Positions 13,164-64,000 of a DNA stretch of 64,000 nt are shown here, piece by piece. The stretch is from Heliopora coerulea (taxonomy: Eukaryota; Cnidaria; Anthozoa; Scleralcyonacea; Helioporidae). A program made the position numbers and the translations under genes. Each line of letters begins with the position of its first letter. Positions within the stretch are counted from its first letter, which is position 1. The notes under the pieces are model-generated. The model was given only the letters and a program-made list of their open reading frames with translations, was not told the DNA's origin and searched no databases. The DNA is taken from assembly GCA_030142905.1 (NCBI GenBank), contig JASJOG010000035.1:744001-808000 (forward strand), in the 5' to 3' direction.

Positions 13164-14781
13164 CCGTATTTCCTCTAATATACGCCGGGGGCGTGTATTA
13201 ACTTTTGAGGAAATTTGGTGCGGCGTGTATTGGAGGGAGGCGGGTAAAAGAGGGAGGCGTCTATTTTGCAATCAAACTCTTAACAAGCTCTGGGGCAAAA
13301 GTATGACAATTTAAGTGTTCCGCTACAAAGTTCGCATGCAAGGCTTCACATCTAAAAACAGGGCAAATTTAAAATAACTCTTGCTTTTATGAAGAATCAA
13401 ATTACTACAATGGTAGCAGGCTCATTCTGGAGGCAAATCTTGAAAGTCACATAAATTGGTTCAAAATATTTAATATTCATCAAAGAAGGCAATACTTAGG
13501 GATCGTAAACAAAGAAACTTAGAAACTCTAAACTTAAAATTCAACATCCAAATCATCTTCGTCTTTATCTTCATCGAGAAGGTGAAAAGATTCTGTTGCT
13601 TCTTCCCTGTCCGAATCGGTGATTTCAAACGGGTTTATCTGCAGCGATGTGTCATCAAGCATTGCTGTTTGGTTATTCAAAAAGGACAAACCAGCTGCGC
13701 AGGGTGAGCCTGATTTAAAGCAGTGAACTATCTCGTCTTCACTTCCATCTGTCTTGAGATTTAGACCACAGCTTTTGAAAGACTTCTTAATTAAATCTTC
13801 AGATAGGGCATCCCAAGATCCCAGAACCCATTCGACAACTTTGCGTCTTGGCGGTGGCTTCATGTTTCCACCAGCTGTGTATTCGTGAATACCATTACTT
13901 AGCCATTCGTCGTAACGATCAGTCAGATGTCCTTTGAATGGCTTATTCCATGAAACGTCTGGAGCTTGGATGTACTTCATACAGCCCCCTGGGACCACAA
14001 CAGAATCTACTTTGGCCATTTTGAGAGTCTTCCTCACTTCATTTGTTGTATGGCATTCGAACGAGTCCCATGCAAGCAAGCGACGACGAAATGCAAACTT
14101 TCCAATTACCGAATTAGCAAACTGTATAGTCAGTTCTTCGTTCATCCAGGCATTCGCTGATGAAGCAACACAGCAACGAGCTTTAAATTCGTCATTTAGC
14201 GCCTTGCTTTCACGCTTAGCACCACCAAACAACACGAAAATGATCTTCTTGTGGGTCACGTTCCCATTGAATTGTCCAGTCTAATACACTACTTTCTTGA
14301 AGCAGATAAGGGCAACTGTTTGGAACTAAAAGTCACCGGGAAACGCAAACGGGAAGTTGGACTGGTAGTTCCAGCCCTATTTATCGCTCTTACAACAAAG
14401 AAATCAACAGCAATAACTCTGCACGAAGAATTAAAGATGAGGAAAGAAAAACTGCTACACTTCGACTTCAAATACGAGCAAAAGAGTGAGGACATCAGAA
14501 AGACTCCATATTTTAATACAAAAGTTAATTGTGAATCTACCAAATGAATATTTTTTACACATGTATCTACAAGATTTTTAAAAAATTTTTATGTATAACG
14601 TTTTATATTCTCTTATTTTCCTGCAATTATTCTAATAAAACGCCGCTTTTGGAGGGGGGCGTTTACTAGAGGGGGCGTGTATTAGAGGGAGGCGTTTATT
14701 GTCATTTCTATATAAATTGATGCGGCGTCTATTAGAGGGCGACGTGTAATTGAGGCTAGGCGTATGTTAGAGGAAATACGG
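13164..14781 (-). mobile_element. Tigger/pogo-type DNA transposon relic
   Basis: Terminal inverted repeats begin CCGTATTTCCTCTAA on both ends, flanked by TA dinucleotides (13162-13163 and 14782-14783), the Tc1/mariner target signature. Subterminal GGCGTGTATTAGAGGG-type words repeat. Length is 1,618 bp. The internal coding region is the minus-strand transposase remnant listed separately. It inserted about 55 bp upstream of the AP5Z1 start codon. Confidence 0.9.
13534..14259 (-). pseudogene. Tigger-type DDE transposase, N-terminally truncated
   Basis: 241 codons cover the C-terminal half of the catalytic domain: AWMNEELT, LLAWDSFECH (second catalytic Asp), VVVPGG, DVSWNKPFK (Asn-Lys-Pro-Phe-Lys motif) and the trailing GLNLKTDGSEDE. 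The helix-turn-helix DNA-binding region and the first catalytic Asp block are missing; the DNA upstream to 14781 has no matching frame. IQAPDV replaces the usual IQPLDV. The product would be inactive. The frame itself is uninterrupted, suggesting an internal deletion rather than old decay. Confidence 0.85.
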
Positions 14782-21500: not shown

Positions 21501-24500
21501 CATTGAAAAACAGTTTTGGAGTTTCTAGAGACGATTTCAAATGAAAGCAAAATACACTCAGAAAATTCCAGAGCGCAGCTAACGAAACCAACGACATACA
21601 AAAACTACCTGGATTCAAATGTTTGTCGACATAAGTCCTGGAGAGCAACGCTAGTGTGGTGTAAGCCTAAATATATTTAGAGTTTAGGCTGAAACCATAG
21701 TCAAACCTACCTTTTCTCAATCCGCGAACACCCCGCTCCAAACTCGGGCCCTGGAAGAAGATTGTAAAACATTTTCCAGCAATTCTACTATCCATGCTTA
21801 TTAACACATAGCCTATCAAATAATTTCCCAGAGTTGTTAGGTTAAATATTCGAGACAAAGTTAAAGCTACGTTTAGCTTATAATATGTATAGAAAATTTG
21901 CGTCGTACACTTTCTCTCTGTTTAGTTTTTGTTCTATTTGGCAAAAGGTGGAGTGGTTCGTGGTTTAAGATCCTTGTTTTTTCCTTTCTCCCTCTTCAAT
22001 AATTGATAGGGAGAATTGATAGGGAGCAAGAAATTTTTCAGTGGTGGCCGTTTTAAAAAGCAAATGCAACGAGAACAGCGCTGCAATCCTACCTTTGGCG
22101 ATTTTCAATTGAACCAACCTCATACAGGTTCTTGCATCCTCAATGGAACAATGACCATTTGAATCGTTTTGGATCACAGCCCTATTCACAGAAAGTTGTC
22201 ACTGTCAGCTGGGAAAGTTGACGACCAGGGTAATGCCAGGGACCATCTGAGTGCAGGACACCTCCATGACCGGGAGTCATACCCCCGAAGTCATCAAACA
22301 ATTCGTTCCGGTTTTGAATGAATATCATTTTTCACCAAATCACCGCTAGGTAATTGTGTGCGCAGTGTGGTGTTAAATTTTACCAAATAATGGTCAGTAA
22401 TACTGTTTAAGTAAAAAATAAGATCACTGGAGGTTTTCTTATCACAAATTTGATATTTTTCGGGCGGAAGGGTCCACTTTGGCGTAAGTGCCTGCGCGGC
22501 CGCCAGGGGCCGCCCACCGTGGGCAGAACCCTGGACACCAAAACAGTAAAATGGCAAAATTCATAACTGCCTCCCAAGAAGCCCTGAAACGTTTCAAATC
22601 ATTACACTCTAACTAAAAGATTACCATGCTAATATATAACGCTAGCACCACATGAACTCCGTTAGAAAAACATCACAAAAACATCCAGTTGGCTTACTTC
22701 AAATACTTTTTTGCTAAATATTTCAGGCTTGGTTTGAATCCAGGTCCACGTCCATCATCATAGATGACTGAAGTATCAATAACTTTATTGTGGAAAAACT
22801 AAAATAAACATTGTGTACATTGTCATGGTGAGCTGCATCAGTTGGTGGCAGGGCCGCTGAGAGGGGGAGGCAGGGGGGCAAATTGCCCCAGGTCCCCAAC
22901 TCAAAGGGGCCCCCAAAATAGGAAGGATTTAGCATGGGTTGGTTTTGACCATATGGAATGATTCCTATGACGTCATAAATAGGGCCCCGGAAAAAGTTTT
23001 GCCCTGGGCCCCACTAATTCTCTCGACAGCCCTGCTTGGTGGTACCTCTGTTTTCATCCGATCTTGTCCTGCCCCATTGTCCAAAAGTATTCTAGTATTT
23101 TTCACACAAAACATCCCTGTCATCCTATTACTGATACCTACCTCATCCAATGATTTTATTTATCTTACTGAGCTTCAATCCCGTTTCTATCTCCTCTCGA
23201 CTGATCTATCCCAATATATCTAAACCTATCCCCCCACATTTCAACCAATCTCATTCTAAACTCCAGTAAAGTCTGGTACCTTCAATGATGTGAAGTCAAA
23301 CTCCAGTGAATGACCAACAATGATAGCATCAGGAGGAATAATTTTTTTCAGTCTTTTCTGAACTCCTTCTAAAGTTGTTTTCACACCACAAAGATCTTCT
23401 TCTGTGATTCCACTGTATCTAAACCACATTAACAATGACAGTGTATCAACTACATGTTGCAATTCAGCTCACAACTAGGGGATGCAGTAAGCATGCAAAG
23501 GGTAATAAGAAGATTCAAAGAACGAAAGGGGGTTGATTTAAAATTGAACATGATTACTAAGGTAAATACACACATAGTCACATGGTTCACGTAAGGGATA
23601 AAGAGTGGGCTTGTGTGATAAATGAAAACTACATGAGGGATCCAGAAGGAGTAACAAAGGATACAAGTGGACAGAAAGCTTTTAAGTGGTGATTGCAGTA
23701 TTAATTGATGCCATATACCACAAGAAAAACCAGTCAGGACCTGCAATTTTACTAGGGGAATAGTATTGAATAATGTACCTTGTTAAGTAATCAATTATAG
23801 GGCATTCTGGCTTTACTAGGCTGTCATATACTATTTCAAGTGACTGATCCACCAAGGAAATCCGGGTTAATTCACGACCCCGTGCAGACATGCACTAAAA
23901 AATTATATAATTAGCATGATCAATACAAATACAAGAATAACAACATACTATGAATGTTACTTTACATGACCTTATGGATCTCACCATTTCACAATCCAAG
24001 GCAAACAATGGACTGATGCTTGTTGCCTCCATCTTAGTAACCCTTGGTATGGTAAAAAAGTCTTCTGCTTCTAAAGATAGAATCAAGGTGACATATCAGT
24101 TGTATGAAGGGTTATATGGTGATTAGTGTTACAGTTACATGAAATTTGCAGCATCAGCATCAGTTAAGAGGGATATATATAGTGGCTTCCATCTGAGTCT
24201 CGGTAGCTCAATAGTTAGAGCATCTCACTGGTCATCAGAAGGTTGCAGGTTCGATCCCCGCCTGGGGCTCAGAATCGTTTTCTGAGTACAGGGCTTGACA
24301 ATCATTCATCCCTCTTAAGATATATCCAAGCACTCATGTTTCTCAAACAAAAAACTACATCAGCATCAGTTGTTGTTAAATCACCTCTTTTGTGAGCAGT
24401 CAGGAAATTTAAAAAAAAAAAAAATTTTCCCTGAATATCTGACTGTCTGCCTGCCAGTCTGTCTATCTAACTGTCAATCCACCTATCCATCTAGCTCAGT

Positions 24501-44690: not shown

Positions 44691-45227
44691 TTTTAACAGT
44701 GAGGGAGTGGAGGGAAGCTTAGCCCATAACGATTCATCTTTCTCTTAAATCCGCCCTCAACCAATGTGCCCCCGCAAAATTTTTTCTCTCGATTAGCTAC
44801 TGCCATTACTATTAAAAAGTCCACTTCAACCCTCGAGAGATAATTCCGTAAAGCTCTTTTTAAATCCGTAGGAGGTGACAGGAAAAGGCTATTTTTAAAC
44901 TGGTCAGTGCTATATAAACTGAAGTCGGAGGCGCGAATACAGCAATGAGAAAATTGTTATTGCTGTACACAAGGCGGATCCGCGATTTGCCTTACAAGAT
45001 ACTAACAATGTATTTAAACCAATTACCCAGAATTATTTTTCGGGAAATAAATAAAAATTTATAATACAGCAGATCAAGATTCGAAATAATTAATGGTAAT
45101 CTGATTAGTCGATCCTTGTTTTTTTCTACATTACTGTTGTGAACTGGGTAAGATTGGATGACGTGCACACACGTGATCGGAAATAAGTGCATTATACACG
45201 CATGACATGTATATAGTTGAGTTAAAG

Positions 45228-46105
45228 CCTAGTTTCCATATAGTTGTAATTGTTGTAATTCTATCGCCGATAATCGGCGATGAGCCCTTACAACAATTAC
45301 AACTATATGGAAACGCGTGTTGTAATTGTTGTAATCCAATCGGCGATGAATCGGCGACTGTTGTAGAAGTTGAATCGAGTTCAACTTCTACAACAATTAC
45401 AACAGTCGCCGATGCGGTCAAATTTAATGGAAACGCTTTCTACAACAGTCGCCGACAGTCGCTGATGAAAAGAGGGCACGTGACATGAGTAGCCAATCAT
45501 AGCATATCTTCTGTTGCCATAGTAAAGTATCGCAATCACGAGACTCGCGTGGATTGATTCCATTTCCAAAGAGAAACCTTAAACTAGAATTTCGTGTAGA
45601 AGAAGGCTGACAAAAGACGATCTAAACGACTCGAGATAAAAATGGGCGACTCAAACATCAGTAACGAAGAGTTCATGGACATTGTTAGAAACTATCCTGC
45701 TGCATATAAGCGGTCTTCAGTTGATTTCGGCGACAAAAACAAGAAGGCCAATTCTTGGCGAGCCATGGCTAAAAGTAGCACGCATTGGGCATGTAGAAGC
45801 ACCCTTCTGTTTAGCCGTGCCATCCTTCTCGCAGTGCTTTTCCCTCACGATTGCTTACAATCTTCAGTTTGTTATAGAAATGGACTTACAACAGAACTGC
45901 CTTTCCAGACGCCATGTAAACTGTACATCCGCATGCGCAGTTTCGACAGAAATCGGCGATTGTTCGACCGAGAAGTCCTGTGAACTAGCGGGAAATCGGC
46001 GACGAATTACAACAATTACAACGATATGGAAACTAAAATGTTGTAATTCCGTCGCCGATTATCGCCGATGGAATTACAACAATTACAACTATATGGAAAC
46101 TAGGC
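45228..46105. mobile_element. PIF/Harbinger-like element inside the BEL LTR
   Basis: Inverted ends AGCCTAGTTTCCATATAG (left) and its complement (right, ending ACTAGGCT) are flanked by the trinucleotide TAA if one base on each side is given to the element; a 5-bp TTAAA reading is equally consistent. Subterminal words TTGTAATTGTTGTAATTC and CGCCGAT/ATCGGCG recur many times in both orientations. The internal plus-strand frame at 45642 starts MGDSNISNEEFMDIVRNYP, resembling a MADF/Myb-SANT-like DNA-binding domain common in Harbinger partner proteins. Non-autonomous: no DDE transposase. Confidence 0.75.
45642..45983 (+). pseudogene. MADF-like DNA-binding fragment
   Basis: About 50 residues fit the start of a MADF/Myb-like domain: EEFMDIVRNYPAAYKRSS, a basic NKKANSWRAMA block and a Trp spaced as in the family. 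After residue 50 the frame loses resemblance, and an overlapping frame (45682-46137) continues open. Likely a truncated or spliced accessory protein of the Harbinger-like element. Confidence 0.5.
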
Positions 46106-46213
46106 TTAAAAAGCGAGTCAAGCAAGCGATTCCGTGATACATTGTTTAATAATATATTGGAAATTCTAATTCTATTTGTCTAAATTCTTTGGGAGGCAAG
46201 GGAATTTACGACA

Positions 46214-46526
46214 AAGTGGCACCTCCGACGAAAGGGATAAATCAAACTAGTCCGAAACCATGGAAGCTATTCAAGCAAAGCCTGAAGTGAAATTGACGCA
46301 GTTGCGTTTGAGTGGAGAAGTCAAAAGCTGTCATCGAATCAAACCAGCGAGAACCGATCGAAAGACACTGTCATGGGCTAAAATCGATTACGAACGACAT
46401 AAACGACATGCGTCTAAAAGTGGGAGAAGCGAAAATAGAAGCAAAAGAAGATTTAGACGAGATAAATCAATAGAACTTAGAGTTAGACGAAAAACTCCCT
46501 CAAGCTGATGTCGAGATCAAACGACT
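46214..46526 (+). other. BEL 5' leader and gag start region
   Basis: Directly after the LTR, AAGTGGCACC may be the primer-binding site; the tRNA was not identified. A short frame from 46260 (MEAIQAKPEVKL) ends at 46508, just before the main gag-like frame, probably due to a frame break. Confidence 0.5.
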
Positions 46527-47951
46527 GTGCAAACGTGGACTGAGGCGCTCAAGAAGGAACAGGAGTTGAATGCGAAAGATGATCAAATTAAATTTGAAAT
46601 GAAGCTGCAAGAAACAAGAATGAGGTCTCACGCTGAGGACGCTGTGAAGGACGAAAGCATCTTGTCGAAGGTTAGTCCAAACTCATCCTGTTCAAGCATG
46701 ATGGCCAAGCTGCCAAAACTTGTGATTTCGAAATTCGATGGAAGTTACCAAGATTGGCCAAGGTTCTGGGGGCAATTTACCGAAACCATTGACAAAGCAA
46801 GCATCCACCCCATAACAAAGTTCACTTCCTTGTGCGAGCTGTTAGATCCGAAGATTAAACATGTCATCGACTCTTTTCCGTTTACGTTAGAAGGCTACAA
46901 CCGCGCCAAAGCAATTTTAGCGAGTCGATATGGGAAAGAATCCGAAATCGTTAAGTCCTTCGTTAAAGAAATAATGGAATTGCCGCACATACCAAACGCA
47001 AACCCATGAAAAATCCACGAATTCAGTGAGCGCCTGAATCATTGCGTACAAGCTTTGCCAACGATGAAAAAGTTGAGCACGGTTGATGGCAATGTGGCAA
47101 TGACATTAGACAAGCTTCCGGCGATTCGAGGGGACTTAGTGCGAACGGACCCCGAATGGGAGAAGTGGGATTTTGCCAAACTATCTGAAGCTGTCCGATT
47201 GTGGACTACGCGCAACCCCATAGATCAAAACCGAACGGGCAGAGAAAAAGAGAAGCAGTTTTTTGTGGGACGGAAATCTCGGGAATGTGTCTATTGTGGT
47301 GAAAAAGAGCACGAAGCGTCAAATTGCGACAAAGTGATTGACGTCACAGAGCGGAAACAAGTCTTATTAAAAAAGCGATTATGCTTTAACTACGTGATTG
47401 GCAACCATCGCGCTGCTGATTGCCCTAGCAAAACAAACTGTCAAATATGCAACAAACGTCATCACACATCAATTTGTGATTCGACAAATTCCAAAGAGAA
47501 AGCGTTGACGACAAACCAACAAGCATCTGATGGCGTGTTTCCGGTCCTAGTTATTAAAGTCAACGGAGTCAAATGTCTTGCATTAATTGACTCCGGATCT
47601 GGTAGTTCTTATATTTCAGCAAAGCTAGCGAATATACTGAAAGCGAAACCAGTCGAAAGCCAAATGAAACAAGTCGAAATGCTAATGTATTCGAAACGAG
47701 TGCGTATGGAAACCTATAAGTTAGATGTCGAATCTCTGGATGGTAAGCACGAAATGAAGGTCAAATTCATCAAAGTTGACAAGGGCGAGTTACTTTCCAT
47801 CGACAACCCTCACTACGCCGAATTGATTCGTGATAATTCGCACTTGTCAAAAGTAAATATAGCCGATAAGGACAAGAAAAGTCAACTGCCAATCCATGTC
47901 ATCCTAGGTAGGGGAAAATATGCCCGAATTAAAACAGAAACGAAACCTTAA
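46527..47951 (+). pseudogene. BEL gag-like, zinc-knuckle and protease region, broken
   Basis: 46527-47009 is a gag-like domain (KLPKLVISKFDGSYQDWPRF, typical of DUF1759 in BEL elements), ended by a stop near 47007. The frame resumes and runs to 47951. It has a CCHC knuckle (CVYCGEKEHEASNC), a second knuckle whose second Cys is Tyr (CFNYVIGNHRAADC), and an aspartic protease LIDSGSGSSY. The Cys loss and the stop indicate inactivity. Confidence 0.85.
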
Positions 47952-48289
47952 TCGGCAACGACGGCGAGCCTGTTGCAGAATTTACAAAAATGGGATGGTT
48001 CGTGATGAGTCCCGGAGCAGAATTTGATCAAAACACAATGCTACTCACTCAAACCTCTCACGGTGACTACGAGAAACTATGTCGTCTTGGTGTCCTGGGG
48101 CTTGAAGACAGACCAGAGAACGATCAGTCCACAGTGCACACAGAGTTCAAGGAACAACTCCTTCGAGCGGAAGAAGGATGGTACGAAACTGGGTTGCCTT
48201 GGCGAGGGAATCATCCCTAGCTATCCGACAACAAGCAAGGCAGTCTGTAACGGCTAGAGAATCTGACAAGACGTCTACAGTGCAAAGGG

Positions 48290-48871
48290 TTGACAGCAGC
48301 TTATGACGAAGTGATTCAAGATCAACTTAAAGAGAACGTCGTAGAAGCAGCACCAGTTGATGCTAAAGAGAAAGAGTTTTATATTCCGCACAAAGCAGTT
48401 GTACGTGAGACGGCAACAACCACCAAACTGCGCATCGTTCATGATGCTTCCGCAAGAACATCTCCCCAAGCCCCTTCTCTGAACGAGTGCCATAATCCTG
48501 GCCCACCACTGCAGAATCGTCTGTGGGACGTGTTGATTTGCCAACGTGCCTATCCTGTTGCTGTCACGGGAGACATTCGTCAAGCGTTTTCACAAATCAG
48601 GATTCGAAACGATGACCGAGATGCATTAAGATTCCACTGGCGATCAAGTGAAAAGGAAGAAATCAAGACGCATCGATTCACTCGAGCTCTCTTCGGATTG
48701 ACACCTTCACCCTTTCTTTTGAATGGTGTGCTCGAAGCTCATCTCGATATTTGGGAAGAAAGACTTCCAGGCGTTGTTCCATATCTACTAAAAGGCCTGT
48801 ATGTCGATGATCTACTTACAGGTGGCGTAACCATCAAAGAAGCACAACGAAAGAAGCAGCCACAGAGATAA
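48290..48871 (+). pseudogene. BEL reverse transcriptase segment
   Basis: KLRIVHDASART, VTGDIRQAFSQIRI (first catalytic Asp), FGLTPSPFLLNG and the YVDD box at LYVDDLLTGG mark a Pao-type reverse transcriptase. The frame is broken upstream (47952-48289) and downstream near 48870. Confidence 0.9.
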
Positions 48872-49007
48872 TGACTGACGCGACATTCCACTGCACAAGT
48901 GGAACTCAAACGTTGAGGAGCTTGAAGAAGAATCCAAGTCTGTACAGGTAACTGACGACCAAACGTTTGCAAAGCAGCAACTAAACGTAAACCCGAGCGA
49001 ATCCAAA

Positions 49008-49571
49008 ATGTTAGGTCTGAAGTGGGACAAACAAAGAGACACTTTAAGCGTAGTGATACCAAGCGAAACAGCACAACCAACCAAACGAGGGATACTTAGA
49101 AAGTTAGCTCGGATCTACGACCCACTTGGTCTGGTTACATCGTTAACTCTAATTGGAAAACGGATCTACCGTGAGGTCTGTGAGAAGAAGGCTGCATGGG
49201 ATGCCCCTTTAAGCAATGAACTTTTGCAGCGATGGACGAAATGGGAGCGACAGTTACCATCCGAATACGAAGTGCCACGATCGATCGTTAGTCACAGGGA
49301 AGAAATTGCACGCATTGAGTTGCATTCGTTCGGAGATGCGTCAGTAAAAGGAGTCGGAGCGGTCGTATATGCAGTCATGAAGCAGAGCACAGGTAGGACG
49401 CAACAACTGGTGGCAGCGAAAAGTCGTTTAGCCAAGAAAGGGATAACTATACCTCGCCTCGAACTTGTAGCGGCTCACATGGCTACCAATTTGATGATAA
49501 ATGTGAGGAACGCTTTGGATAACGTGTCTATAACAACTCTGCACGGCTGGATGGATAGCACGGTTGCTTTA
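49008..49571 (+). pseudogene. BEL RNase H-like/connection segment, 5' part
   Basis: GILRKLARIYDPLGLVTSLT, HSFGDASVKGVGAVVYA and PRLELVAAHMATNL are characteristic of the Pao connection and RNase H-like region. The frame is cut at DSTVAL by the antisense element at 49572 and resumes at 52876. Confidence 0.9.
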
Positions 49572-49700
49572 TGTAATATTCGTATTCTCTATCACTATCG
49601 TGTCCACTCACCAACCGTATATATGCAACTCTATCCTTGTTCTACAAAACGTCAATCATATTCTAAAGGCGTGTCTTTGCACCCGATTCACGTCACTACA
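49572..49700 (-). repeat. Ty3-type element LTR (3' in element sense)
   Basis: 129 bp, starts TGTAATATTCGTATTC and ends CGTCACTACA on the plus strand. Two differences from the 52747-52875 copy. Confidence 0.95.
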
Positions 49701-49808
49701 TCACTTCCCCTTTTTAAAGGAAATATCAATGTTATAAGCCTATAAGGTATCTACATGGATCAATATCAATTTAAAGTCAGTAACTATACATATATATATA
49801 TTGTCATT

Positions 49809-50217
49809 TCAATATTTAAACGAGCCTATCAGATTTGATGGAAGTTCCTGACCAAATCTTTGTGGTGGTCGACTTAACCTAGATGATCTTAGTGTTGGAG
49901 GTGGTTGCTCATGATCATCGTTGTTGTTCACAGGTTGATTGTTTTGTGGAGTTGTTTCGGAATTATCGAAACACTCATCGTCTGTATCATCTTCATTATC
50001 AAACTTCTTCACGCGCTTGTAATGTGATACGTTTCGGGTTACTGTATGACCGTCTTTTCTCTGTGCCGTTATTTGTGGACCGGTCTTCTTTATCACTTTG
50101 TATGGTTTCGAACTGAAGTTCGATGTTAACTTATTTCTCTTGGCCTGTCGCACCAAAACATAATCACCAATTTTAATCTCACTCTTTCTCGTGTTTCTTT
50201 TGTGGTCTGCATATTCT
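49809..50217 (-). pseudogene. Integrase C-terminal tail
   Basis: KRNKLTSNFSSKPYKVIKK and the following basic and acidic tail fit the post-catalytic region of Ty3-type integrases. The frame is separated from the catalytic part by a shift in the T-rich stretch at about 50220-50235. Confidence 0.75.
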
Positions 50218-50973
50218 TTATTCTTCTTTTTTTAACTTTTCTTCGTTCGTTTTAGCTTCTCTGTGTCGGTTGATGACTTTCTTTGCGTTTAACACGGGAA
50301 TTTTGCCTTTTACAGTCCTATTGAATAAAAGTTCTGACGGTGGTACTCCTGTGGTACAATGTGGGGTTGTTCGATATTGTAAAAGGAAACGATTTAACTC
50401 CTGTCTCCACGGTCGTCCCTCTATCTTGGCTGTCTTCAGCGCTTTTCCTAAAGGTTGCATAAATCTTTCAACCGTAGCATTTTCTTGCGGCCAATATGGT
50501 GTTGAAAACTTGGCTGTGATCCCAAGAGCTGTCATGTATCGTTTGTACTCGTCTCCGTTGAAGGGTGGTCCATTATCGGAAACTACTGTGTCCGGTATTC
50601 CACGAACGGAAAAGATTTTATCGAGCTTCGGAATGACGGTGGAAGCTTTCGTGGAGTGAACCATCTCAACTTCCGGGAACCTGGAGTATCTATCCACTAT
50701 CACCAAAAGATGTTCAGATGTGGGTAGGGGGCCATAAAAGTCTGCGTGTACAGTTCTCCACGGTAACTCAGGCATTTCTGTCATTCGTAATGGTTCAGGT
50801 TTCGTCTGACCAACCGCTTGGCATGCTATGCACTGTTCGATTATGTCTTTGACGTAACTGTCAATTTTGGGGAACCATATCTTCTCTCTAAGAAGTGATT
50901 TGGTTTTTCCTATTCCTAAGTGGGTTTCATGGGCTAGGTCTATTGCACAGTTGTAAACTGTTGGGAATGACAA
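50218..50973 (-). pseudogene. Ty3-type integrase catalytic region
   Basis: His-His-Cys-Cys part THLG...CIACQ, then the DDE triad in TVHADFYGPL, TVVSDNGPPF and ENATVERF. 251 codons are open. The start is out of frame with the preceding minus-strand frame at 50927-51193. Confidence 0.9.
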
Positions 50974-51307
50974 TTCTTGTCCCTCGTAGTATTATGTCTT
51001 CTTTGGTGATCGTCAATTCGTTCTTTACTGCTTTGTATGGTCTTACTAGTGGAGAGTCCCACTTATTCGCCCTGATTGCATCTCGGAGATCAATCAATAT
51101 TGCGTCGGCATTTGTTGCGTCCATTATCTCTTTGAGAGTCATAGCTTTAGGAATACTGTTCTGCGTAACGAAATTAACGTAATGCTCTGTCATTTTCTCT
51201 TGTTTGCATTTGCTGCTACTGGTCGGATGGCGAGACAGATAATCAGCAGGATTATTTGCGCCTGATTTGTAGATTATCTTGAACGAGTAAGGTTGTAAGC
51301 GAAGAAT

Positions 51308-52789
51308 TCATCTTTCAATGCGTGCCGAGGTCTTGGCTGTGCGTTTACCGTATATGATTTCCAAAGGTTTGTGGTCGGTGACGAGTGTAAATTCACTCCC
51401 GAAGAGAAAGAGGTGGAAATGTTCGACAGCCCACACTATCGCTAAAGCTTCTTTCTCCGTCTGTGAGTATCTCCTTTCGGTATCTGTTAGAGCACGGCTG
51501 GCATACGCGATTACCTTATGGCTGGTTGTGGCGTCGTCATGCTGTTTTTGACAAAGGATTGCGGAAATGCCAACAGGGCTTGCGTCGACAATTACGAAGG
51601 TTTGTTTCCGTTTGTCAAAATACGCCATACATGGAGCTGTTGCTAGGGTATGTTTCAGTTTTTCAAAAGCAGCTTGGTGTTTTGAGGTCCATTCGAAACG
51701 AACGTCCTTTTTGGTTAACTCTCGAAGAGGGGCGGTCAGGGTTGCGAAATCTGGTATGTATTTGCTACTATAGGTAGCCATGCCCAGGAGACTTCTGACC
51801 TCGTGTGTGTTGTTTTTTTGATTTGTCAGCTTATATAAATAGTGCTCGTCTGAACTTGAATTTGATGCCGTGTCCAATGTTTTAACGTTTCTTTGTTTCG
51901 TTTTGTTTGAGTTATTTCTACGATTTCTTCGTGCAGTTGTTTGCTTGCGTTTCCCTCGACAAACACTGGCAAAATGGTTTAGTTTTCCACAGTTGTTGCA
52001 TATTTTCCCTTTCGCGGGACACTCCGTTTCGTGTGGATATGCACGTCCGGAATTTCGATACTTTACACCACTACGATGACTAGTGTTTTGTTCTATTTTG
52101 TTCGTTTCGCCGTCCAATGGTTCTTTCGATTCTATTTGCTTTGTTTGATATGTACTTTGCTCATTGCGGCGCCCTTCGAGAAGCATGGCTTTCAAATCAA
52201 ATGTAAGGTCACGTAATGCACGCTTTCGTATTTTTGACGAATTACCACCAATGATTATTTGCTCCTCGATCTCGAACTCGACGTCTGCGAATTCACAGGT
52301 TTCCGCCATTGTTCTCAGCCTGGTATGAAACTGGTCGAGCGTCTCGGATTGTTCTTGCGTTGTTTGTCTGAAGCGGTAGACTTCATATCGTCTGTTCTTT
52401 TGTGGATCAAAATAAGCTTTGAGTTTTTCTTTCGCCACGTCGTAATCCGTGTCAGTTCCCGTTCCAGGAATTTGTTTGAATATTTCACGAACTCTTGCTC
52501 CGGCCTGGTAAAGCAAGAGGACTCGTTTGCGTTTTGGATCTGTAATCCCACTCGCCGTAAGAAACATTTCGAAGTCAGACTGCCAATTGCTCCACCGCAT
52601 AGCGAGGCTTGTTCCTATTTTCGCATCGGGGCAAAATTCTGGCATCGGATTTATTGTAACGGATTGCATGATATGTACAGGCGGTTGTTGCTGTTGTGGC
52701 GGAGGTTCTTGTTCGTTTTCCATCGAAAATTTATCGTCGTCGCCAATGTAATATTCGTATTCTCTATCACTATCTTGTCCACTCACCAA
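51308..52789 (-). pseudogene. Gag fused to RNase H by internal deletion
   Basis: 493 open codons: a Gag capsid-like region (WSNWQSDFEMFLTASG, LRTMAETCEF), a CCHC knuckle (CNNCGKLNHFASVC), then a direct jump to the reverse transcriptase thumb and RNase H (VRSLLGMATYSSKYIPDF, FVIVDASPVGISAILCQ, TDHKPLEIIYG). The whole protease and the catalytic reverse transcriptase are absent, yet the frame is kept across the junction near 51.82 kb. A TGA right after ARIER separates it from the next segment. The first residues are encoded in the LTR. Confidence 0.9.
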
Positions 52790-52875
52790 CCGTATATATG
52801 CAACTCTATCCTTGTTCTACAAAACGTCAATCATATTCTAAAGGCGTGTCTTTGCACCGGATTCACGTCACTACA
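52747..52875 (-). repeat. Ty3-type element LTR (5' in element sense)
   Basis: 129-bp partner of 49572-49700. The target duplication CTTTA follows at 52876. Confidence 0.95.
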
Positions 52876-53996
52876 CTTTACACTGGATCAAATGTAACGG
52901 CCAGTACAAGCACTTCGTCGCGAACAGAGTCGCCAAGATCCGGCAGTCCAAGGACATCCAGTGGAGCTACGTCCCGACTAGCGGGAATCTCGCTGACATA
53001 GCGAGCAGAGGAGGCCAAATCAGTTCCTGTACACTCTGGGCAAGGGGTCCTGTGTGGCTTCAGAGCAAGCAGGAATGGCCCGAAAACGTAGTAACCAAGT
53101 CGTCAACAGAAATAGAAGCAGAATCCAAAACAGAAAGAGAAATCGTTAACACGACGACGAGCAGACCTCATGCTGACGATTTCGACAACCTTTTAGAGAG
53201 GTGCAACAGCTTACGTCGCGTGTCGAGAGTGGGAGCGTGGATCAAGAGATACATCGACAACTGCAGAAGTCCTACAAAACATCTCGGTCCCGTAACCCCA
53301 GAAGAGGTGAGTCGCGTACGAGACTGGTGGATCCGACGAGTTCAAGAGAGAGAAAGGCAAGAACCACACTACTCAAAGATGAAAGTTCAACTGGATCTTC
53401 GACCAAACGCCAACAACTTGGAATTGTGCCACGGCCGAATACAAGGGAAGCATCCTGTATATCTTCCGAACAAAGCCGAGTTTACGGAGATGTTAGTTCA
53501 ACAGGTTCATCGCGAGGTACTCCATGGGGGAGTGGGCCTCACAATGGCGGCAGTTCGCGAAAGGTATTGGATTCCGAAATTGCGAAGCCTTGTCAAGCGT
53601 ATCCGGAGCAAGTGCAACGGGTGTAAAAGATACCATGCAACAGCGATACCAGGGCCAGCACCAGGGATGTTACCGAAAGACCGCTCCACCATGGCAACCG
53701 CTTTCGAAGTTGTAGGAACAGACTTCGCGGGTTCAATCAAATATAGGCAAACTGGAAAGAAGGAAGGAAAGGCATACATAGCGATATTCTCATGCAGTCT
53801 TTGCAGAGCCGTACACCTGAAGCTGCTGAAAATGCCAGATTCCGAGTCATTTATACATTGTCTCAAACATTTCATTACTCAGCGTGGAAGACCCCGCGTA
53901 ATCTATTCTGATAATGGAGGGGCGTTTAATAAAACCGCGAAGTGGATCCGACAACTGCGAAGAGACGAACGTGTACAAGGACTTCTGGAGCAATAA
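52876..53996 (+). pseudogene. BEL pol 3' part: RNase H end and integrase
   Basis: Continues the BEL frame after the insert (WSYVPTSGNLADIASRG). The integrase zinc region is HREVLHGGVGL...CNGCKRYH, then FEVVGTDFAGSI (first Asp) and VIYSDNGGAF (second Asp). The frame ends at 53996, before the expected Glu. Confidence 0.85.
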
Positions 53997-54032
53997 CGAA
54001 ATCACGTAGAAGTTTAATTTGAGTAGAGCCCC

Positions 54033-54710
54033 ATGGTGGGGAGGTCAATTCGAGAGACTGATCGGAGTTGTGAAGGCTCGTATGTACAAGGTCATTGGGG
54101 GAGCAAAGTTATACTGGAAGGAGTTGAGCGAAGCACTACTAGCATTGAAACGCAAATTAATCGAAGACCCTTGGATTACATAGAGGACGACGTCGAAATG
54201 CCCACATTAACACCAGCGACGTTCTTGTTTCAGTGCACCGCGCATCTCCCCGAAGAGGAAGCTTGGAGAACTAAAGAAAAGGATCTCAGGAAGAGAGCGA
54301 AATTTTTGAAGACGTGTAAAGACAGTTTATGGAGGCGGTGGCAACGAGAATACCTTACAGCACTTCGCGAACGGCATAACCTCACTCACAAGGTGAGCAA
54401 ATTTCAACCCGAAGATGTGGTCATTGTCAAGACAGAAAATAAGAATCGTGGAACATGGCCTTTAGCGGTCGTGACAAAAACCCACCAAGGAAGAGATAGA
54501 GTTGTCCGCGGAGTGGAGCTTAAAACCGCAACTGGAGTGATCGACCGACCCGTGCAGCTTCTGTACCCCCTGGAGCTGAAATGTGACGTAAAGGCGACTG
54601 CAGAGCAACCAAGATTAAACCTGGAGGCACCGGAATACCGACCAAAAAGGGATGCAGCTGTAGCAGCAGAGTTCAGACTGAAGGAAGTGGAACGTGTTGA
54701 GAACGTTTGA
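54033..54710 (+). pseudogene. BEL integrase C-terminal region
   Basis: Another frame restarts after a break and carries PLDYIEDDVEMPTLTPATFL and WPLAVVTKTHQGRDRVVRGV, the conserved end of Pao integrases (DUF5641-like). A frame change separates it from the catalytic core. Confidence 0.85.
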
Positions 54711-54877
54711 TGTATTTACTATTTAGAATATTATCTTACTTGAACAGTCGATTAAGACAATTGTTCTAGCACTGTTATAATTGTCTAATTGTTTATTATT
54801 GTTTAGTTTGTGAGTTAATTCGAACATTAGTAAAGCTAGACATATGCATCCTAGTGAGAATGCATATGGGGGGAGAG

Positions 54878-55072
54878 TGTTGTGAACTGGGTAAGATTGG
54901 ATGACGTGCACACACGTGATCGGGAATAAGTGCATTATACACGCATGGCATGTATATAGTTGAGTTAAAAAGCGAGTCAAGCAAGCGATTCCGTGATACA
55001 TTCTTAAATAATATATTGGAAATTCTAATTCTATTTGTCTAAATTGTTTGGGAGGCAAGGGAATTTACGACA
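54878..55072 (+). repeat. BEL right LTR
   Basis: 195 bp, TG...CA ends, uninterrupted. Preceded by a G-rich purine tract and followed by ATTAC. Confidence 0.95.
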
Positions 55073-55125: not shown

Positions 55126-57216
55126 TTAATCCATATCTTGCAAGAAATGTAAAACGAAATAAAAGCACCGTAGTAACTCAGGGTTGGGTTGTTTTCCGAG
55201 ATTACTATTGCTAAGGCGACTTGGTTCCAACATGTCCTGAATTAAAAACTGAAACGCCTCGAATGTAAAATCTGCCCAACGTTTCTTCGCAAAATTAGTC
55301 TTCGTGACTCGCACTACGTCTTCGATTTCGCCATTTCCAACGCGCCACGCAAAAATTCTTTCCTCTTCTTCGTAGAACTCCATGACTTCTTGTGCACTGC
55401 GGCATAGCCTCAGCTGGGCTCTATGCGCGGGATCATCCACACACGCGCTCGCAGGTGACTGTTCACCGTCAAACAGAAGCCTCTTGTCGACAATCGATGA
55501 AGACCAGTTCCCTGCGCATTTCATAAACTGATTCTTGATAGAATATTTCTTCGAGTTAGGAAGTAAGGCGTCCAAGTCGCAGATAACAGCGTATGGAATA
55601 CCGAGATCTTTGCAAATCCTCGTCGCTTTGTCGACGTTTTTCTTCCCTAACAACGTCAACACGCTACAATTTCGCGCAAGCTCTCGACACTCTTCCAGCT
55701 GGTTTTCGCGAAAATACTTTTTCTCGTACGGAGGAGATGCGAACAGATTTTGCAACGGATTGATGCCTGTCACGCCGTAATCAAGGTCATCCATGCTGCT
55801 GTTTTCTTCCTCATCTGTGATGTCCTCTGGGGTAGTAAACGCCTCACTTATTGCCACCCGGTAACCCATACTATCCACCCTGTCCCTGGGATCCACTAGT
55901 ACGTTCCACAAAATCTCGTTTCCCTCATCAATCAACTTTAAAATGGCGTCGCAGAAGCGACGATCTGTGTCTCCCTCAACCCAGATGATTCTTCGAGTGA
56001 AGAACAACTCGCGACTCTCCAGCGAACTAATAAATCGCATGTCTCTGTAACTGTGCTCGTGTGACACTCGGCGAATCTCGGTGTAACCGGAATCAAGCCG
56101 CTGGAATCGGAAAATCCGACTGATCCGAGACGTGTGCACCATGTCAGGTGCATGCGTGGCGACAACAATCACTTTATCTTTCTCACATGAATTCTGAGAA
56201 AGGATTCTTTCAAGCCGTCTGATTTGAAGGGGATGCATGCCACGTGTTGGCTCGTCGAGCAATACCGTTTTGGCCAGCGGATTTATGACCAAGAATGCCA
56301 CGACGAAAGCGTGGAAGAAGCCTTCCGGCAGATCATCTCGGATAGAATCACAGCTACCAAGTCGCTGCCTCATGTGAATCGAATTTGAGACTGGGTCGTA
56401 GACCACGGTGATTCGAGCATCACCTGTGAGTTTGTGGAATAATTCGATAACTTCATTCCAAATAGTGTCACGTGATTGAGCAGGCAGTTGAGTGTTCCTT
56501 AGGGCAAGAATCACGGCTGTTTGGGGGTGCTTTGGTTTTACGCCGTCAATGGGATTGCCAACATCACCGACAGGAGTGGAACATCTTACGAAATTGTACT
56601 GCGTGGTAATTAGTGCGGAGGGGTCTGGTGACCAGTGAAGTAAGTCTTCAGTGACCCAACTGTCAACGATAGCCACTTGGGCATTCTGGTTGAATGGCTG
56701 GATTAAAGCAGTGATCTGACCACCAGATTTTACGTAAAGAAACTTTGAAGCTATTGCTTCACCCAGCCCATCTGATGAGGGTGTGTGTTTAAACCCAATA
56801 ACAACTGTTGAGGGACTGGTGACTAAATGCAGATGTTCATCTGCAAGAAACTGGTGTAGCTTTTTGGGAATTTTCAAAATTCCATCTAAAAACCATAGCT
56901 GAAAAGCGGGGTAGATGGTTCCAAAATTCTTGCTTTCAACACAACCTAATTCTTTCCAGTTCTTAACTTCATATTCACAGGCAACAATGGATTCTCTTGA
57001 ACTACCACACACACGATTTGAAATTCTACCCCCAAAATCACTGGCTAGTCCAGCAAGAGCCAGAAATGTACTTTTGCCACAGCCGTTTTCACCAACTAAT
57101 GTGAAATACTTGCCGCCATTCGTCGAAGCTGTCTCCACTGAGAAGTCAACTTCTTGTTTGCTATTGAAAATTTTGTAATTGTCGATGAGAACGCGTTTCA
57201 AAATCGGTGCCACCAT
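55126..57216 (-). CDS. OLD-family ABC ATPase with TOPRIM nuclease domain
   Basis: 696 codons, one uninterrupted coding exon. ATPase: Walker A VGENGCGKST at 41-50, a signature-like LPEGFFHAF near 296, Walker B KTVLLDEPTRGMHP at 316-329, H-loop VVATHAPD at 351-358. TOPRIM: WVEGDTDRRFCDAIL from 412 (Glu414), AVICDLDALLP with Asp547 and Asp549, and a late VGNGEIEDVV near 626. This order is that of OLD/GajA-type ATP-dependent DNA nucleases. Those are known from phage P2 and bacterial defence systems such as Gabija; in animals the role is not established. A splice acceptor (AATTTCAG) ends two bases before the ATG and a GTAAGT donor lies at 57659, giving a likely 441-bp 5' UTR intron. That supports a real nuclear transcript rather than bacterial contamination. 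No UvrD-type partner is nearby. The start is the first ATG, 41 residues before Walker A. Confidence 0.9.
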   Translation of the reverse strand: MVAPILKRVLIDNYKIFNSKQEVDFSVETASTNGGKYFTLVGENGCGKSTFLALAGLASDFGGRISNRVCGSSRESIVACEYEVKNWKELGCVESKNFGTIYPAFQLWFLDGILKIPKKLHQFLADEHLHLVTSPSTVVIGFKHTPSSDGLGEAIASKFLYVKSGGQITALIQPFNQNAQVAIVDSWVTEDLLHWSPDPSALITTQYNFVRCSTPVGDVGNPIDGVKPKHPQTAVILALRNTQLPAQSRDTIWNEVIELFHKLTGDARITVVYDPVSNSIHMRQRLGSCDSIRDDLPEGFFHAFVVAFLVINPLAKTVLLDEPTRGMHPLQIRRLERILSQNSCEKDKVIVVATHAPDMVHTSRISRIFRFQRLDSGYTEIRRVSHEHSYRDMRFISSLESRELFFTRRIIWVEGDTDRRFCDAILKLIDEGNEILWNVLVDPRDRVDSMGYRVAISEAFTTPEDITDEEENSSMDDLDYGVTGINPLQNLFASPPYEKKYFRENQLEECRELARNCSVLTLLGKKNVDKATRICKDLGIPYAVICDLDALLPNSKKYSIKNQFMKCAGNWSSSIVDKRLLFDGEQSPASACVDDPAHRAQLRLCRSAQEVMEFYEEEERIFAWRVGNGEIEDVVRVTKTNFAKKRWADFTFEAFQFLIQDMLEPSRLSNSNLGKQPNPELLRCFYFVLHFLQDMD

Positions 57217-57659
57217 AACTGAAATTGGATAAAATGGAATTCAACCTAAAATGGAAGAAAAATCACGGATTTCCCATAAGCAGATGGTTTTTTGTGTAAT
57301 ACACTGTTACTTTAAGTAACCACCTGACTGTGCTTCGCGAAAGTTCTTAAACCAGCGGAGTCAAAACAGGATTTCAGGTTTTGTAACTCTGTATATCTAG
57401 TGCTTCCCTACAGATAGTCCTGTTTATCTGTTCAAAATAGGAAATGTTATACATCATCCGTATGAGCAGACATGAATTCCACGTTACTACAGTAATTAAA
57501 GCACTCAACATTGTGAGGTTTCAGGTATTAATACCGTTGTAAAATATTCATGGAATATTTCCAAAACAAATTCTAGTCTTAACGTTTAAACGTCCTGTTT
57601 TAAATAAAAACATTCGTGCCACGATGCCTTGAATTACGGTCTAAGAATTGTAAACTTAC

Positions 57660-60778: not shown

Positions 60779-63700
60779 TTACAATACCTGGTCATGATAG
60801 GCATCTAGTTCAGCATCAAGTTCTTCAGCAGTTTTTGATTGCCTTTTGTTTCCTGAACCTCCTCCTGAATGACCTCTTCCAAATCCTCTACGTCCACGGC
60901 CACGGTTCCCTCTACTTCTTCCCCGACTACCACCAATGCTTCCTTGGCTTCTGCAATGGAAATGTAATGAGTGCTTTAGAACATCCTTTAAGCAATTCAG
61001 CATTCTAAAAATGGTCCATGTGATTGTACATGCATGCATCCACATGCCACAACTCCTCAGGGCATGCAATTAATCACCCATATGAAAAAGAGGTCAAAAA
61101 ACAGTTTTAACATATTGCAAACTAACCCAACAAAGAATTTTGCTAATAGTTTTGGGATTCCAAAGCCATTACTGAAGTTGTCATTTGTCATGCACACCTC
61201 TGTTGGCATTCATATGATTTAGTGTTATTAAAACTCTCATTTACTTTTACTAATGGCGGATGATTTAACTTGTTAAGGGGAGAGCTCCTGCAGTCAAAGC
61301 ATCATAACCCTCTCAATTCTTTCCTGACTGGATAGGACTTCCATTATTCTACTCTGGCTAATGCCAGAATTAATCATCAAGGGGAAAGCTCCCACATTCA
61401 AAGTGTTAATGGCATATATTGAAAGTGTATATAACGACTGCTACTCAGATTTTCAATTGGAATCTATATCGTGATTGCAGTAGTTGTTCATTTTCACGTG
61501 ACTTTGTATCACAGTCATGTGCAGAATCCTTCTGGCCATGTCATTTGCTACATGTTATATAGTTGCTTATTGAGAGTACTAGTATTAATCTGTCAGTGAT
61601 AGAAGCAATGTTAATTATTTGTGTTACTTTACAAGAAGTGTTTTTGATTTTCACACCTGAAAGTTTCTCGTTGGCGGTTCATGGCTGGTTCTGACACCAT
61701 CTCGATCTTCATTGCCCGACCTATGCAAAAGATGTGATCACAGACATATAACTGTGAAACAAAATGTGTAATTATTCATGCTGAAGGAGTGATAAATCTG
61801 GAGCAATCTCTAGTTTTAATCAATTTATTGGTTGATGGTATTTATAATTGGACATGTGGATTAAATGTGAAGTTTCTGTACTGCATCACCTAGACATTTG
61901 GCAGCTAAAACACAATGTCAAGCTATAAATATCAGCACCTGGCTCAAAATATTAACAAATCCATTGACTGAAGACTATGGAACATAATATTTTAATCTGT
62001 CATGCTGTTAAACTACATAAAAGATAAATTTATATAAATGCTTGAAGCCCACATATATAATACATATACAAATATATATATGTACACACACAATGACACA
62101 CACATAAGAATCACTTGTTAAATAAAATCATATTGCCAAAATTTCTGAGTAACACAAATGAAATTAAACACTTAAGGAAAACAACAAATTTTTTCTAGGT
62201 AGACATGTTTCGGCAAACTTATGCCATCTTCAGTACAATATAAAACTAACAGACTATTTACAGGCTTTATATGTGATTACAATATGCTAATTAAAATACC
62301 AGAGATGTGATTCAACTAAAGAATTACTCAAACGAGAGAACTACAGAAAGATATGTTAATTGTGAAACAGGAACTATATTTACATGATAAATGGATTACT
62401 GATATGGTGTAAGAGAAGAATTGGTAGTGCAAAAATTATAAACTGAAAATTGTGTTAAAATGATGAACTTGGACATTAAGTTCAGGATTAATCTTGTTTA
62501 TGTGTAGAGCTTCTTTTAAGTGAGGATTTAGAGTTGGCAGAGTCTATGATTTTAAAACAAGATTGCAAGTATTGATTTTTACAAGAAGGTGATTTCAGAA
62601 AGTGTTTATAGATGTGGAAGTTTTTGTCAGTAGAGATGTGTTCCTTGATCCTAGTGGATAAGTTATGAGATGTCTTGCCAATATAGCAGGAATTACATCT
62701 GGTGCAAGTGAATTGATAAACCACAAAAGATTTGAGTTCATTTGGAACAGGATCCTTAATTGAGAAGAGGTTCTTAATTTTGTAAGATGAGAAAACAAGT
62801 TTGATTTCCAAATCAGTGCAGAAGCATTTAGCTAGACTTGTTAAAATAATCTTAGTTGAGTCAGTTTGGAGTAGAAACCTGTGAAAGGAAGTTTAAAGTA
62901 GCAGGTTTGTTGTCTGTCTGTCTGAGGTGTCATAGAAAGGTTGGATGTCTGACTGTTATTCTTGGTGTTGTCATAGTATTTCTTGACCATCTTCTCTTAC
63001 ACCATATCAGTAATCCATTTATCATGTAAATATAGTTCCTGTTCCACAATTAACATATCTTTCTGTAGTTCTCTCATTTGAGTAATTTATTAATTGAATC
63101 ACATCTGTAGTAGTTTAGTTAGCACATCATAATAACATATAAAGCCTGTAAATAGTCTGTTAGTTTTATATTGTACTGAAGATGGCATAAGTTTGCTAAA
63201 ACATGTCTACCTAGAAAAAATTTGTCATTTTCCTCAAGTGTTTAAAATCATATTAACTGATGAGAAGGTAAGTGTATAGTTACAGAGGATTATAAATGAA
63301 ATATGACCATAAGTAAAGATAGAGACTATAAGTAAAGGTTACAGCAACAATTGGATCATAATGATCACATATCTCATAAATGCACCTTGGTGGTTATGCA
63401 ATATCACCATTAAAATCTTTGTATAATTTTTTAAAATCATCCTGCTTTACTAATTTTTATAAATATCTTAAGCCAATTAATAAAAAAATTAAAGAACAAA
63501 TATAAATGGTTAAATACTTAAAATTAAATAAAAGAACCACAAGATAAAAATTCTGGAAACCAAAGACTGCATAATGTTACAGCATGCTGTGCAAACTACC
63601 CATTAACTCAGGGAAATTAATGGCAAATTACTCAGTCCATATGCAAAGAATCAGAGCTACTATAGGCTTGAAAAATTGTTAGCAAGGATTGGAAATTTCC

Positions 63701-63920
63701 TACCTAAACTGACATGTGATTATTTGATTAATTAAACTACAAACATCAGCTTTTTAAAAATGCAGTATATACCATCTAATGGCACTCCATTATATTGTTT
63801 AATTGCATTTAATGCATCTTCTCTCCTTTGATAAACCACCTCAGCTGTCCCATGAGATCTTCCTGAGGCATCATAATGAACACAGGACCGCTTCATTTTC
63901 CCAAATTCTCTAAATAGTTC
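60779..63920 (-). CDS. ALYREF: ALYREF/THOC4 mRNA export adaptor, 5' part off window
   Basis: TREX component that binds mRNA and hands it to NXF1 in the nucleus. Exons seen: 63773-63920, 61657-61720, 60779-60950 (last, stop included); phases join. The first two complete an [56 protein letters not shown]. The last exon is Gly/Arg-rich ([18 protein letters not shown]) and ends with the UAP56-binding motif [15 protein letters not shown], as in the vertebrate protein. The N-terminal motif and first half of the RRM lie beyond 64000. The final residues VL come from reading through a possible GT after DQ, so a further small exon cannot be excluded. Confidence 0.93.
61265..61409. mobile_element. TTAA-ended MITE, longer copy
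   Basis: TTAACTTGTTAAGGGGAGAG at the left and CAAAGTGTTAA at the right, with an internal second half (TCTGGCTAATGCCAGAATTA). Possibly two overlapping family copies. In an ALYREF intron. Confidence 0.55.
62135..63243 (-). mobile_element. Penelope-like element with inverted pseudo-LTRs
   Basis: AAAATCATATT flanks both sides (62124-62134 and 63244-63254), an 11-bp target duplication. Arms of about 270 bp (to about 62425 and from about 62985) are inverted and diverged. Each carries GATGGCATAAG...AACATGTCTACC. The interior encodes only a GIY-YIG nuclease on the minus strand; the reverse transcriptase is missing. In an ALYREF intron. Confidence 0.8.
62488..62811 (-). pseudogene. GIY-YIG endonuclease of a Penelope-like element
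   Basis: 107 codons: [20 protein letters not shown] supplies the two-part GIY-YIG signature (VYQ...CYIG) with the Cys pairs typical of Penelope endonucleases, then LSTRIKEH with the catalytic Arg. The usual fusion to a reverse transcriptase is absent, and the C-terminal HIN...KKP block is shortened. A remnant rather than a host gene. Confidence 0.85.
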
Positions 63921-64000
63921 CTGATAAAAGAAAGGAAAGATTGTCCATTTAGCACTTTCATTCTTAGCAGGTGACTCTTCCTAATAGTTGAAGTGATACT

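Follow-up and report, generated by a model that had tools for sequence, protein, structure and literature searches.

An intact OLD-family ATPase-TOPRIM gene, probably of ancient prokaryotic descent, in the nuclear genome of an anthozoan

A 64,000-nt stretch of the Heliopora coerulea genome (the window; contig C279 from 744001 to 808000, the assembly totalling 430 Mb in 769 contigs) was found to carry an intact OLD-type ATPase-TOPRIM gene at positions 55126-57216 on the minus strand. That the gene encodes a member of the OLD family is very nearly certain. The reading that best explains the evidence as a whole, to which we assign a probability of about 0.6, is an OLD-type conflict effector of ancient prokaryotic descent. 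Within a family of prokaryotic defence nucleases the gene represents an animal branch, intact and probably ancient, in which the fold is ordinary and the host is unusual. OLD nucleases are treated in the surveys and reviews consulted as bacterial, archaeal and viral proteins. In its accessible text, a 2019 survey that gathered 833 homologues by a KEGG search describes OLD as 'absent in eukaryotes' (PMC6755086); the OLD tree described in the accessible portion of PMC12796447 was built from bacteria and archaea, and the accessible portion of PMC10568477 leaves eukaryotes unmentioned. Our own literature search, mostly of papers available without subscription, found none on OLD proteins in animals, none on the sea anemone genes LOC5509623 or LOC116307981, and none linking 'overcoming lysogenization' with cnidaria. 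Genes of the family are already public as uncharacterised proteins with an OLD-like Pfam domain. What is new is the reading of these genes as a single family of standalone OLD proteins, conserved and duplicated.

Gene structure, domain matches and catalytic residues

The 696-codon frame described in a first-pass annotation of the window was recovered exactly, as one uninterrupted frame running from ATG to stop and encoding 696 residues, with no introns in its coding part. At the base composition of the ORF, the chance of 696 stop-free codons from one given start is ~5e-18. The GC content of the ORF is 0.46, and its CpG observed/expected ratio is 1.01, compared with 0.67 in the window, perhaps reflecting an unmethylated gene body. 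Directly upstream lies a candidate 5' UTR intron (57219-57659, minus strand), with a GT donor at 57659 in the consensus GTAAGT and an AG acceptor at 57219, 2 nt ahead of the ATG. Since the minus strand of the 64-kb window holds GTAAGT 19 times, we regard this intron as no better than plausible.

Comparison with OLD and TOPRIM profiles supported the family assignment originally proposed. Two Pfam families were matched above their cut-offs, PF20469 OLD-like_TOPRIM (2.2e-10, 41.3 bits, cut-off 23.2) and PF13304 AAA_21 (5.9e-8, 33.6 bits, cut-off 27), and further Pfam ATPase families all fell under theirs, SMC_N reaching just 0.09. The best PADLOC model was Old (2.2e-17), followed by ATPase-Toprim_I-B (6.7e-16) and mad3 (5.6e-12), with GajA lower down at 1.4e-10. 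Other family members have different top PADLOC models (mad3, AbiLi, AriA), so that the match to a defence model is in part ATPase similarity. Of 97 weak NCBIfam matches none reaches its cut-off; the best, a retron Eco8 effector (3.8e-9), scores 35.7 bits where 250 are required, and retron Eco8-type effector was rejected as a name on this basis. Solved structures were searched both with the single sequence, where UvrA (1.4e-4) and Thermus scotoductus OLD (1.6e-4) lead, and with the family profile, where the class 1 T. scotoductus OLD (6p74) comes first at 5.6e-8 and no GajA chain appears at E 0.01.

The catalytic motifs stand in OLD order, confirming what had been claimed for Walker A, Walker B, the H-loop and the TOPRIM acidic residues. 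Residues were aligned with those of P2 Old, YbjD and two bacterial OLD proteins. On the minus strand, Walker A (GENGCGKS, residues 42-49) is encoded at 57070-57093, with K48 corresponding to P2 Old K37; Walker B (LLDEP, 319-323) at 56248-56262, with D321 for D299; and the H-loop (TH, 354-355) at 56152-56157, with H355 for H332. These are followed, on the same strand, by TOPRIM motif 1 (WVEGDTD, 412-418) at 55963-55983, where E414 and D418 stand for E398 and E402; by a GKKN segment (524-527) at 55636-55647, equivalent to a conserved G-K in P2 Old and other OLD proteins; by the TOPRIM DxD (DLD, 547-549) at 55570-55578, where D547 and D549 stand for D453 and D455; and by GEIED (629-633) at 55318-55332, whose E630 and E632 stand for the metal-B residues D541 and E543. 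According to the accessible text of PMC7049728, the in vivo toxicity of P2 Old, a class 1 protein, requires both nuclease and ATPase and is abolished by mutating any of K37, D299, H306, H332, E398, E402, D453, D455, D541, E543 and K550. All 11 have counterparts here, in order K48, D321, H328, H355, E414, D418, D547, D549, E630, E632 and K644, with two conservative swaps (E402 to D418 and D541 to E630). As far as the same source describes it, the OLD two-metal site consists of an E, D and D at metal A, an E/D, D/S and E at metal B, and a basic residue (PMC7049728); by the P2 Old roles these would be E414, D547 and D549, then D418, E630 and E632, and K644.

Conservation was assessed in an alignment of 30 sequences (the window protein, 27 database proteins and, of the genome paralogues, L014 and L016 but not the broken L015). 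Counting the rows that reach each residue, K48 is kept in 28/28, D321, H328 and H355 each in 30/30, E414 and D418 in 29/29, D547 and D549 in 20/20, and E630 and E632 in 18/18. K644 is kept in 18 of 19 rows, the exception being P0015, where the position lies in the tail past the point at which the frame leaves the family. Given the near-complete retention of the 11 residues, the ATPase and nuclease sites both look intact, and the protein is probably an active metal-dependent nuclease. It is quite improbable, by comparison, that only the ATPase is at work and that the nuclease part is no longer the working part, as in a nucleic-acid sensor or scaffold. The TOPRIM part of Escherichia coli YbjD is dispensable for its anti-phage effects, according to the accessible text of PMC13261556, and this lends the idea a precedent; yet the metal-site residues are kept wherever the sequences reach them, and a dispensable active site should drift.

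Genome neighbourhood

The OLD gene lies between eukaryotic features. Convergent with it, on the plus strand at 45135-55072, is a Bel/Pao LTR retroelement with Peptidase_A17 (4.3e-42), DUF1759 and DUF5641 domains. Its LTRs differ at 5 mismatches in 201 compared positions, five of which were counted twice as the compared parts overlap. An ATTAC duplication stands on either side of the element, which is a separate insertion; 48 nt lie between the end of this target-site duplication and the stop codon of the OLD gene. The only AATAAA on the strand of the OLD gene, at 54797, falls within the span of the element, and the insertion may have cut off the 3' UTR of the gene or replaced its poly(A) region. 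We considered whether the Bel/Pao element had brought the gene with it and dismissed this: neither its LTRs nor its target-site duplication enclose the gene, and paralogues are present on other contigs.

The element itself contains further insertions. An insert of ~890 bp within its 5' LTR (45222-46110) has 59-nt terminal arms that are 95% complementary, and TTAA-containing flanks, resembling a MITE or DNA transposon. Nested at 49571-52875, 130-nt repeats (at 49571 and 52746, 98% alike) surround integrase and RNase H pieces, on the minus strand, that come from a further LTR retroelement. Elsewhere in the window, a DDE_1 transposase domain (7.5e-9) is encoded by a frame at 13534-14259 on the minus strand, and a tRNA-Thr (anticodon GGT) at 24197-24270 is the sole Rfam match.

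Upstream of the OLD gene, also on the minus strand, are two ALYREF-like coding pieces, one with a FoP_duplication domain (60782-61069) and one with an RRM (63735-63980) whose best structure match is ALY/THO complex subunit 4. The two pieces probably belong to a single split host gene, 3.6 kb from the OLD gene. The neighbouring host genes had been described as rich in introns and the OLD coding part as intronless; the latter stands, and of the former it can be said that one host gene, the ALYREF-like one, looks split.

A duplicated animal family and its origin

A database of 5.8 billion proteins was searched, with ~8,000 best word matches scored and, for the region 295-560, all 3,130 candidates. 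The family comprises at least 27 proteins there (P0002-P0024, P0029, P0030, P0045 and P0046). Only two of those among the matches listed carry an organism name, LOC5509623 of Nematostella vectensis (33% identity over 99%) and LOC116307981 of Actinia tenebrosa (39% over 64%), and the remaining 25/27 are without one. P0002 is a separate, same-species-like record one residue different from the window protein. After the family, the next matches listed, none better than 3.4e-7, are to generic ATPases. No relative named from an animal other than a sea anemone, or from a fungus, plant or bacterium, occurs among the matches listed in this word-based search, which misses distant kin. Family members carry large lineage-specific acidic inserts. 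Nine of them (P0006, P0008-P0013, P0015 and P0016) break off after the motif LPLSG, ending within 0-19 residues of it in unrelated tails, a point through which the window gene reads; this breakpoint may be the start of an intron into which a bacterial-style gene caller ran.

Searching the assembly with P0001 revealed three paralogues, all on contig C77: L014 (650 residues, 57% identity), L016 (53%) and L015 (51%). L015 has one in-frame TGA and is 96.3% identical to L016 over 1,716 aligned bases. These two appear to be recent paralogues, lying ~165 kb apart with upstream DNA that is also alike, and L015 to be a decaying copy, altered near the TOPRIM glutamate as well. Over 642 codons the window gene differs from L014 at 202 first, 165 second and 370 third codon positions, and over 559 codons it differs from L016 at 210, 144 and 317. 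The concentration of differences at third positions indicates conservation of the protein alongside saturation at silent sites. The dS between the window gene and its paralogues is saturated: NG86 gives dN 0.354 and dS 3.48 against L014, and yields no dS against L016. For L014 against L016, dN/dS pairs are 0.270/0.784 (NG86) and 0.295/0.587 (YN00). A more distant OLD-like gene, L023, was found on contig C275 as a 624-codon frame (L023:3058-4932) with Walker B, an H-loop, complete TOPRIM motifs and a match to PF20469 (6.9e-9). No Walker A was found for it in 12.5 kb, save one pattern match amid stop codons, and its ATPase may start in upstream exons.

A tree uniting bacterial, viral and cnidarian homologues, as had been proposed for the gene, was built from 67 proteins over 485 columns (11 family rows, the C275 protein, P2 Old, YbjD, a provirus GajA and 52 bacterial proteins). 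The 11 family rows form one clade (100/100). The C275 protein joins it with support of 98/96, and L083, which is bacterial, with 83/89; a quick tree gave SH-aLRT values of 99, 95 and 84 for the same three branches. The C275 and L083 joins are uncertain, since L083, the C275 protein and several others are long branches. The deep branches of the tree are weak, and the family adjoins a single bacterial sequence, L083.

The homology of the animal family to prokaryotic OLD proteins is clear, and the most likely history appears to be that an animal ancestor acquired the gene from a prokaryote long ago and that it has since been inherited vertically. The lack of introns had been taken to suggest acquisition by transfer or retroposition, but this was not borne out as a recent event: the paralogues L014 and L016 and five family proteins (P0003, P0004, P0018, P0019 and P0045) are likewise uninterrupted, so a continuous frame looks like the family norm. 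Recent acquisition from bacteria, or origin as a retrocopy, would account for the intronless coding part and for the GC content and CpG ratio of the ORF. We nevertheless consider it very improbable, given the paralogues, the sea anemone relatives at 33-40% identity, the single clade at 100/100, and the fact that no close bacterial relative emerged in our searches; moreover, L014 is similar in GC (0.446) and nearby 2-kb windows reach 0.47. Contamination of the assembly is more improbable still, to the point of being negligible. The contig around the gene measures at least 808 kb, eukaryotic features flank the gene, P0002 carries it in a separate record, and the N. vectensis relative is on a 16.4-Mb contig. 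The gene thus bears out the proposal of an intact OLD-type ATPase-TOPRIM gene in an animal nuclear genome rather than a bacterial contaminant.

The source of the ancient transfer was sought in two bacterial phyla, with no archaeon sampled. Genome contigs searched with query A1 gave 59 pattern matches, none confirmed. A profile of the TOPRIM part found nothing at 1e-4 in 398 + 398 genomes of the two phyla, which is weak evidence as the search had no known positive; the Pfam domain is present in 39/150 and 21/149 genomes from the same phyla. Phage records gave no match at 0.01, and viral contigs searched with query A1 gave one remote Gabija GajA (L001, 23% identity). On this IMG/VR contig a UvrD-like helicase frame comes after the GajA-like gene, so that the pair looks like a Gabija system, and two recombinase-like genes adjoin.

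Possible function and comparison with known OLD systems

In the mechanism we propose, the protein would form an ATP-gated dimer or oligomer able to sense abnormal nucleic acid or blocked DNA ends. Sensing would be followed by ATP-gated, two-metal cleavage of nucleic acid, either DNA or tRNA, the latter as for P2 Old (as cited in the accessible text of PMC13261556), and in this way the protein would serve inside the cell as a conflict effector directed at viruses or mobile elements. A defence role is suggested by the habit of the family and by the duplication and decay of copies: three paralogues on C77, one of them with an in-frame TGA, fit the gene birth and decay of a conflict gene. Conservation across the family is also compatible with a housekeeping role, and we put the chance that defence is the main job of this gene at slightly under even.

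Work in repair or the cell cycle is the main rival to defence, in the form of an OLD protein recruited as a genome-maintenance enzyme to DNA repair, replication or cell-cycle control. For this there is a precedent in Cran1, an archaeal OLD protein that, in the accessible text of PMC12796447, is undeletable, cycles with the cell cycle and seemingly has no antiviral role. Conservation of the family as one clade from this genome to sea anemones, and an ATPase of the SMC/Rad50/RecF type (SMC_N being under cut-off here), would also agree with it. Against these stand the duplicated copies, one of them broken, the large lineage-specific acidic inserts, which are unusual in a core repair enzyme, and the restriction of named animal relatives to sea anemones among the matches listed. 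On balance we hold maintenance to be unlikely. With defence preferred, we tentatively suggest that anthozoan multi-copy OLD ATPase-nucleases, gained from prokaryotes before the split of corals and sea anemones, could be a partner-free, cell-autonomous immune effector against viral or transposon nucleic acid. If true, they would be an animal counterpart of a phage-defence nuclease, firing without a partner protein. Knock-down and knock-out are routine in Nematostella. As the family there is catalytically intact by sequence, immunity and genome maintenance can be directly tested against one another in an animal.

Lastly, we sought to place the family among the OLD classes. In profile-profile comparison with 14 groups, which are unequal in size and of which the larger are favoured, a seven-member bacterial group came first (99.3%, 2.6e-20), whose members group with P2 Old (82/98) in the more careful of the two trees. 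Other scores were 5.8e-13 for C275, 1.8e-12 for L083, 3.6e-8 for YbjD, 4.6e-8 for GajA and 2.5e-7 for the P2 Old group. GajA and P2 Old thus score about alike, and class is not settled by sequence alone. GajA is defined by an adjoining GajB/UvrD-type helicase. No UvrD helicase was found on contigs C279, C77 or C275, the 16 matches in the genome (84 of 102 candidates scored) all being on other contigs. The gene is therefore a standalone OLD and GajA is ruled out as its name; so far as UvrD-type partners go, it agrees with class 1 in being a single gene. The label 'GajA-like' given in the first-pass annotation consequently falls, with no UvrD on the contig, no GajA chain among the structure matches and the class 1 structure 6p74 the best of them. 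Standalone context and structure search both fit class 1 OLD.

Class 1 proteins (P2 Old, T. scotoductus OLD and YbjD) resemble the window gene in being standalone, in having an ABC ATPase followed by TOPRIM, and in the matching of the 11 P2 Old residues. In contrast to P2 Old, with which it shares 16% identity in the alignment, the window protein has 696 residues rather than 585 and long inserts within its TOPRIM part, and the family differs from class 1 in its animal host and its own separate clade. GajA shares the domain order and TOPRIM motifs, and its profile gives a weak match. Retron Eco8-type OLD effectors (class 3) provide the best NCBIfam model by E-value and resemble the protein through PADLOC ATPase-Toprim_I-B; unlike in a retron, however, the nearby reverse transcriptases are those of LTR retroelements, and the Rfam scan of the window gives only the tRNA. 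Finally, Cran1, the archaeal class 5 OLD, is like the window family an OLD ATPase-nuclease of a vertically inherited lineage, as described in the accessible text of PMC12796447, a likeness drawn beside a tree that here holds no archaeal sequence.
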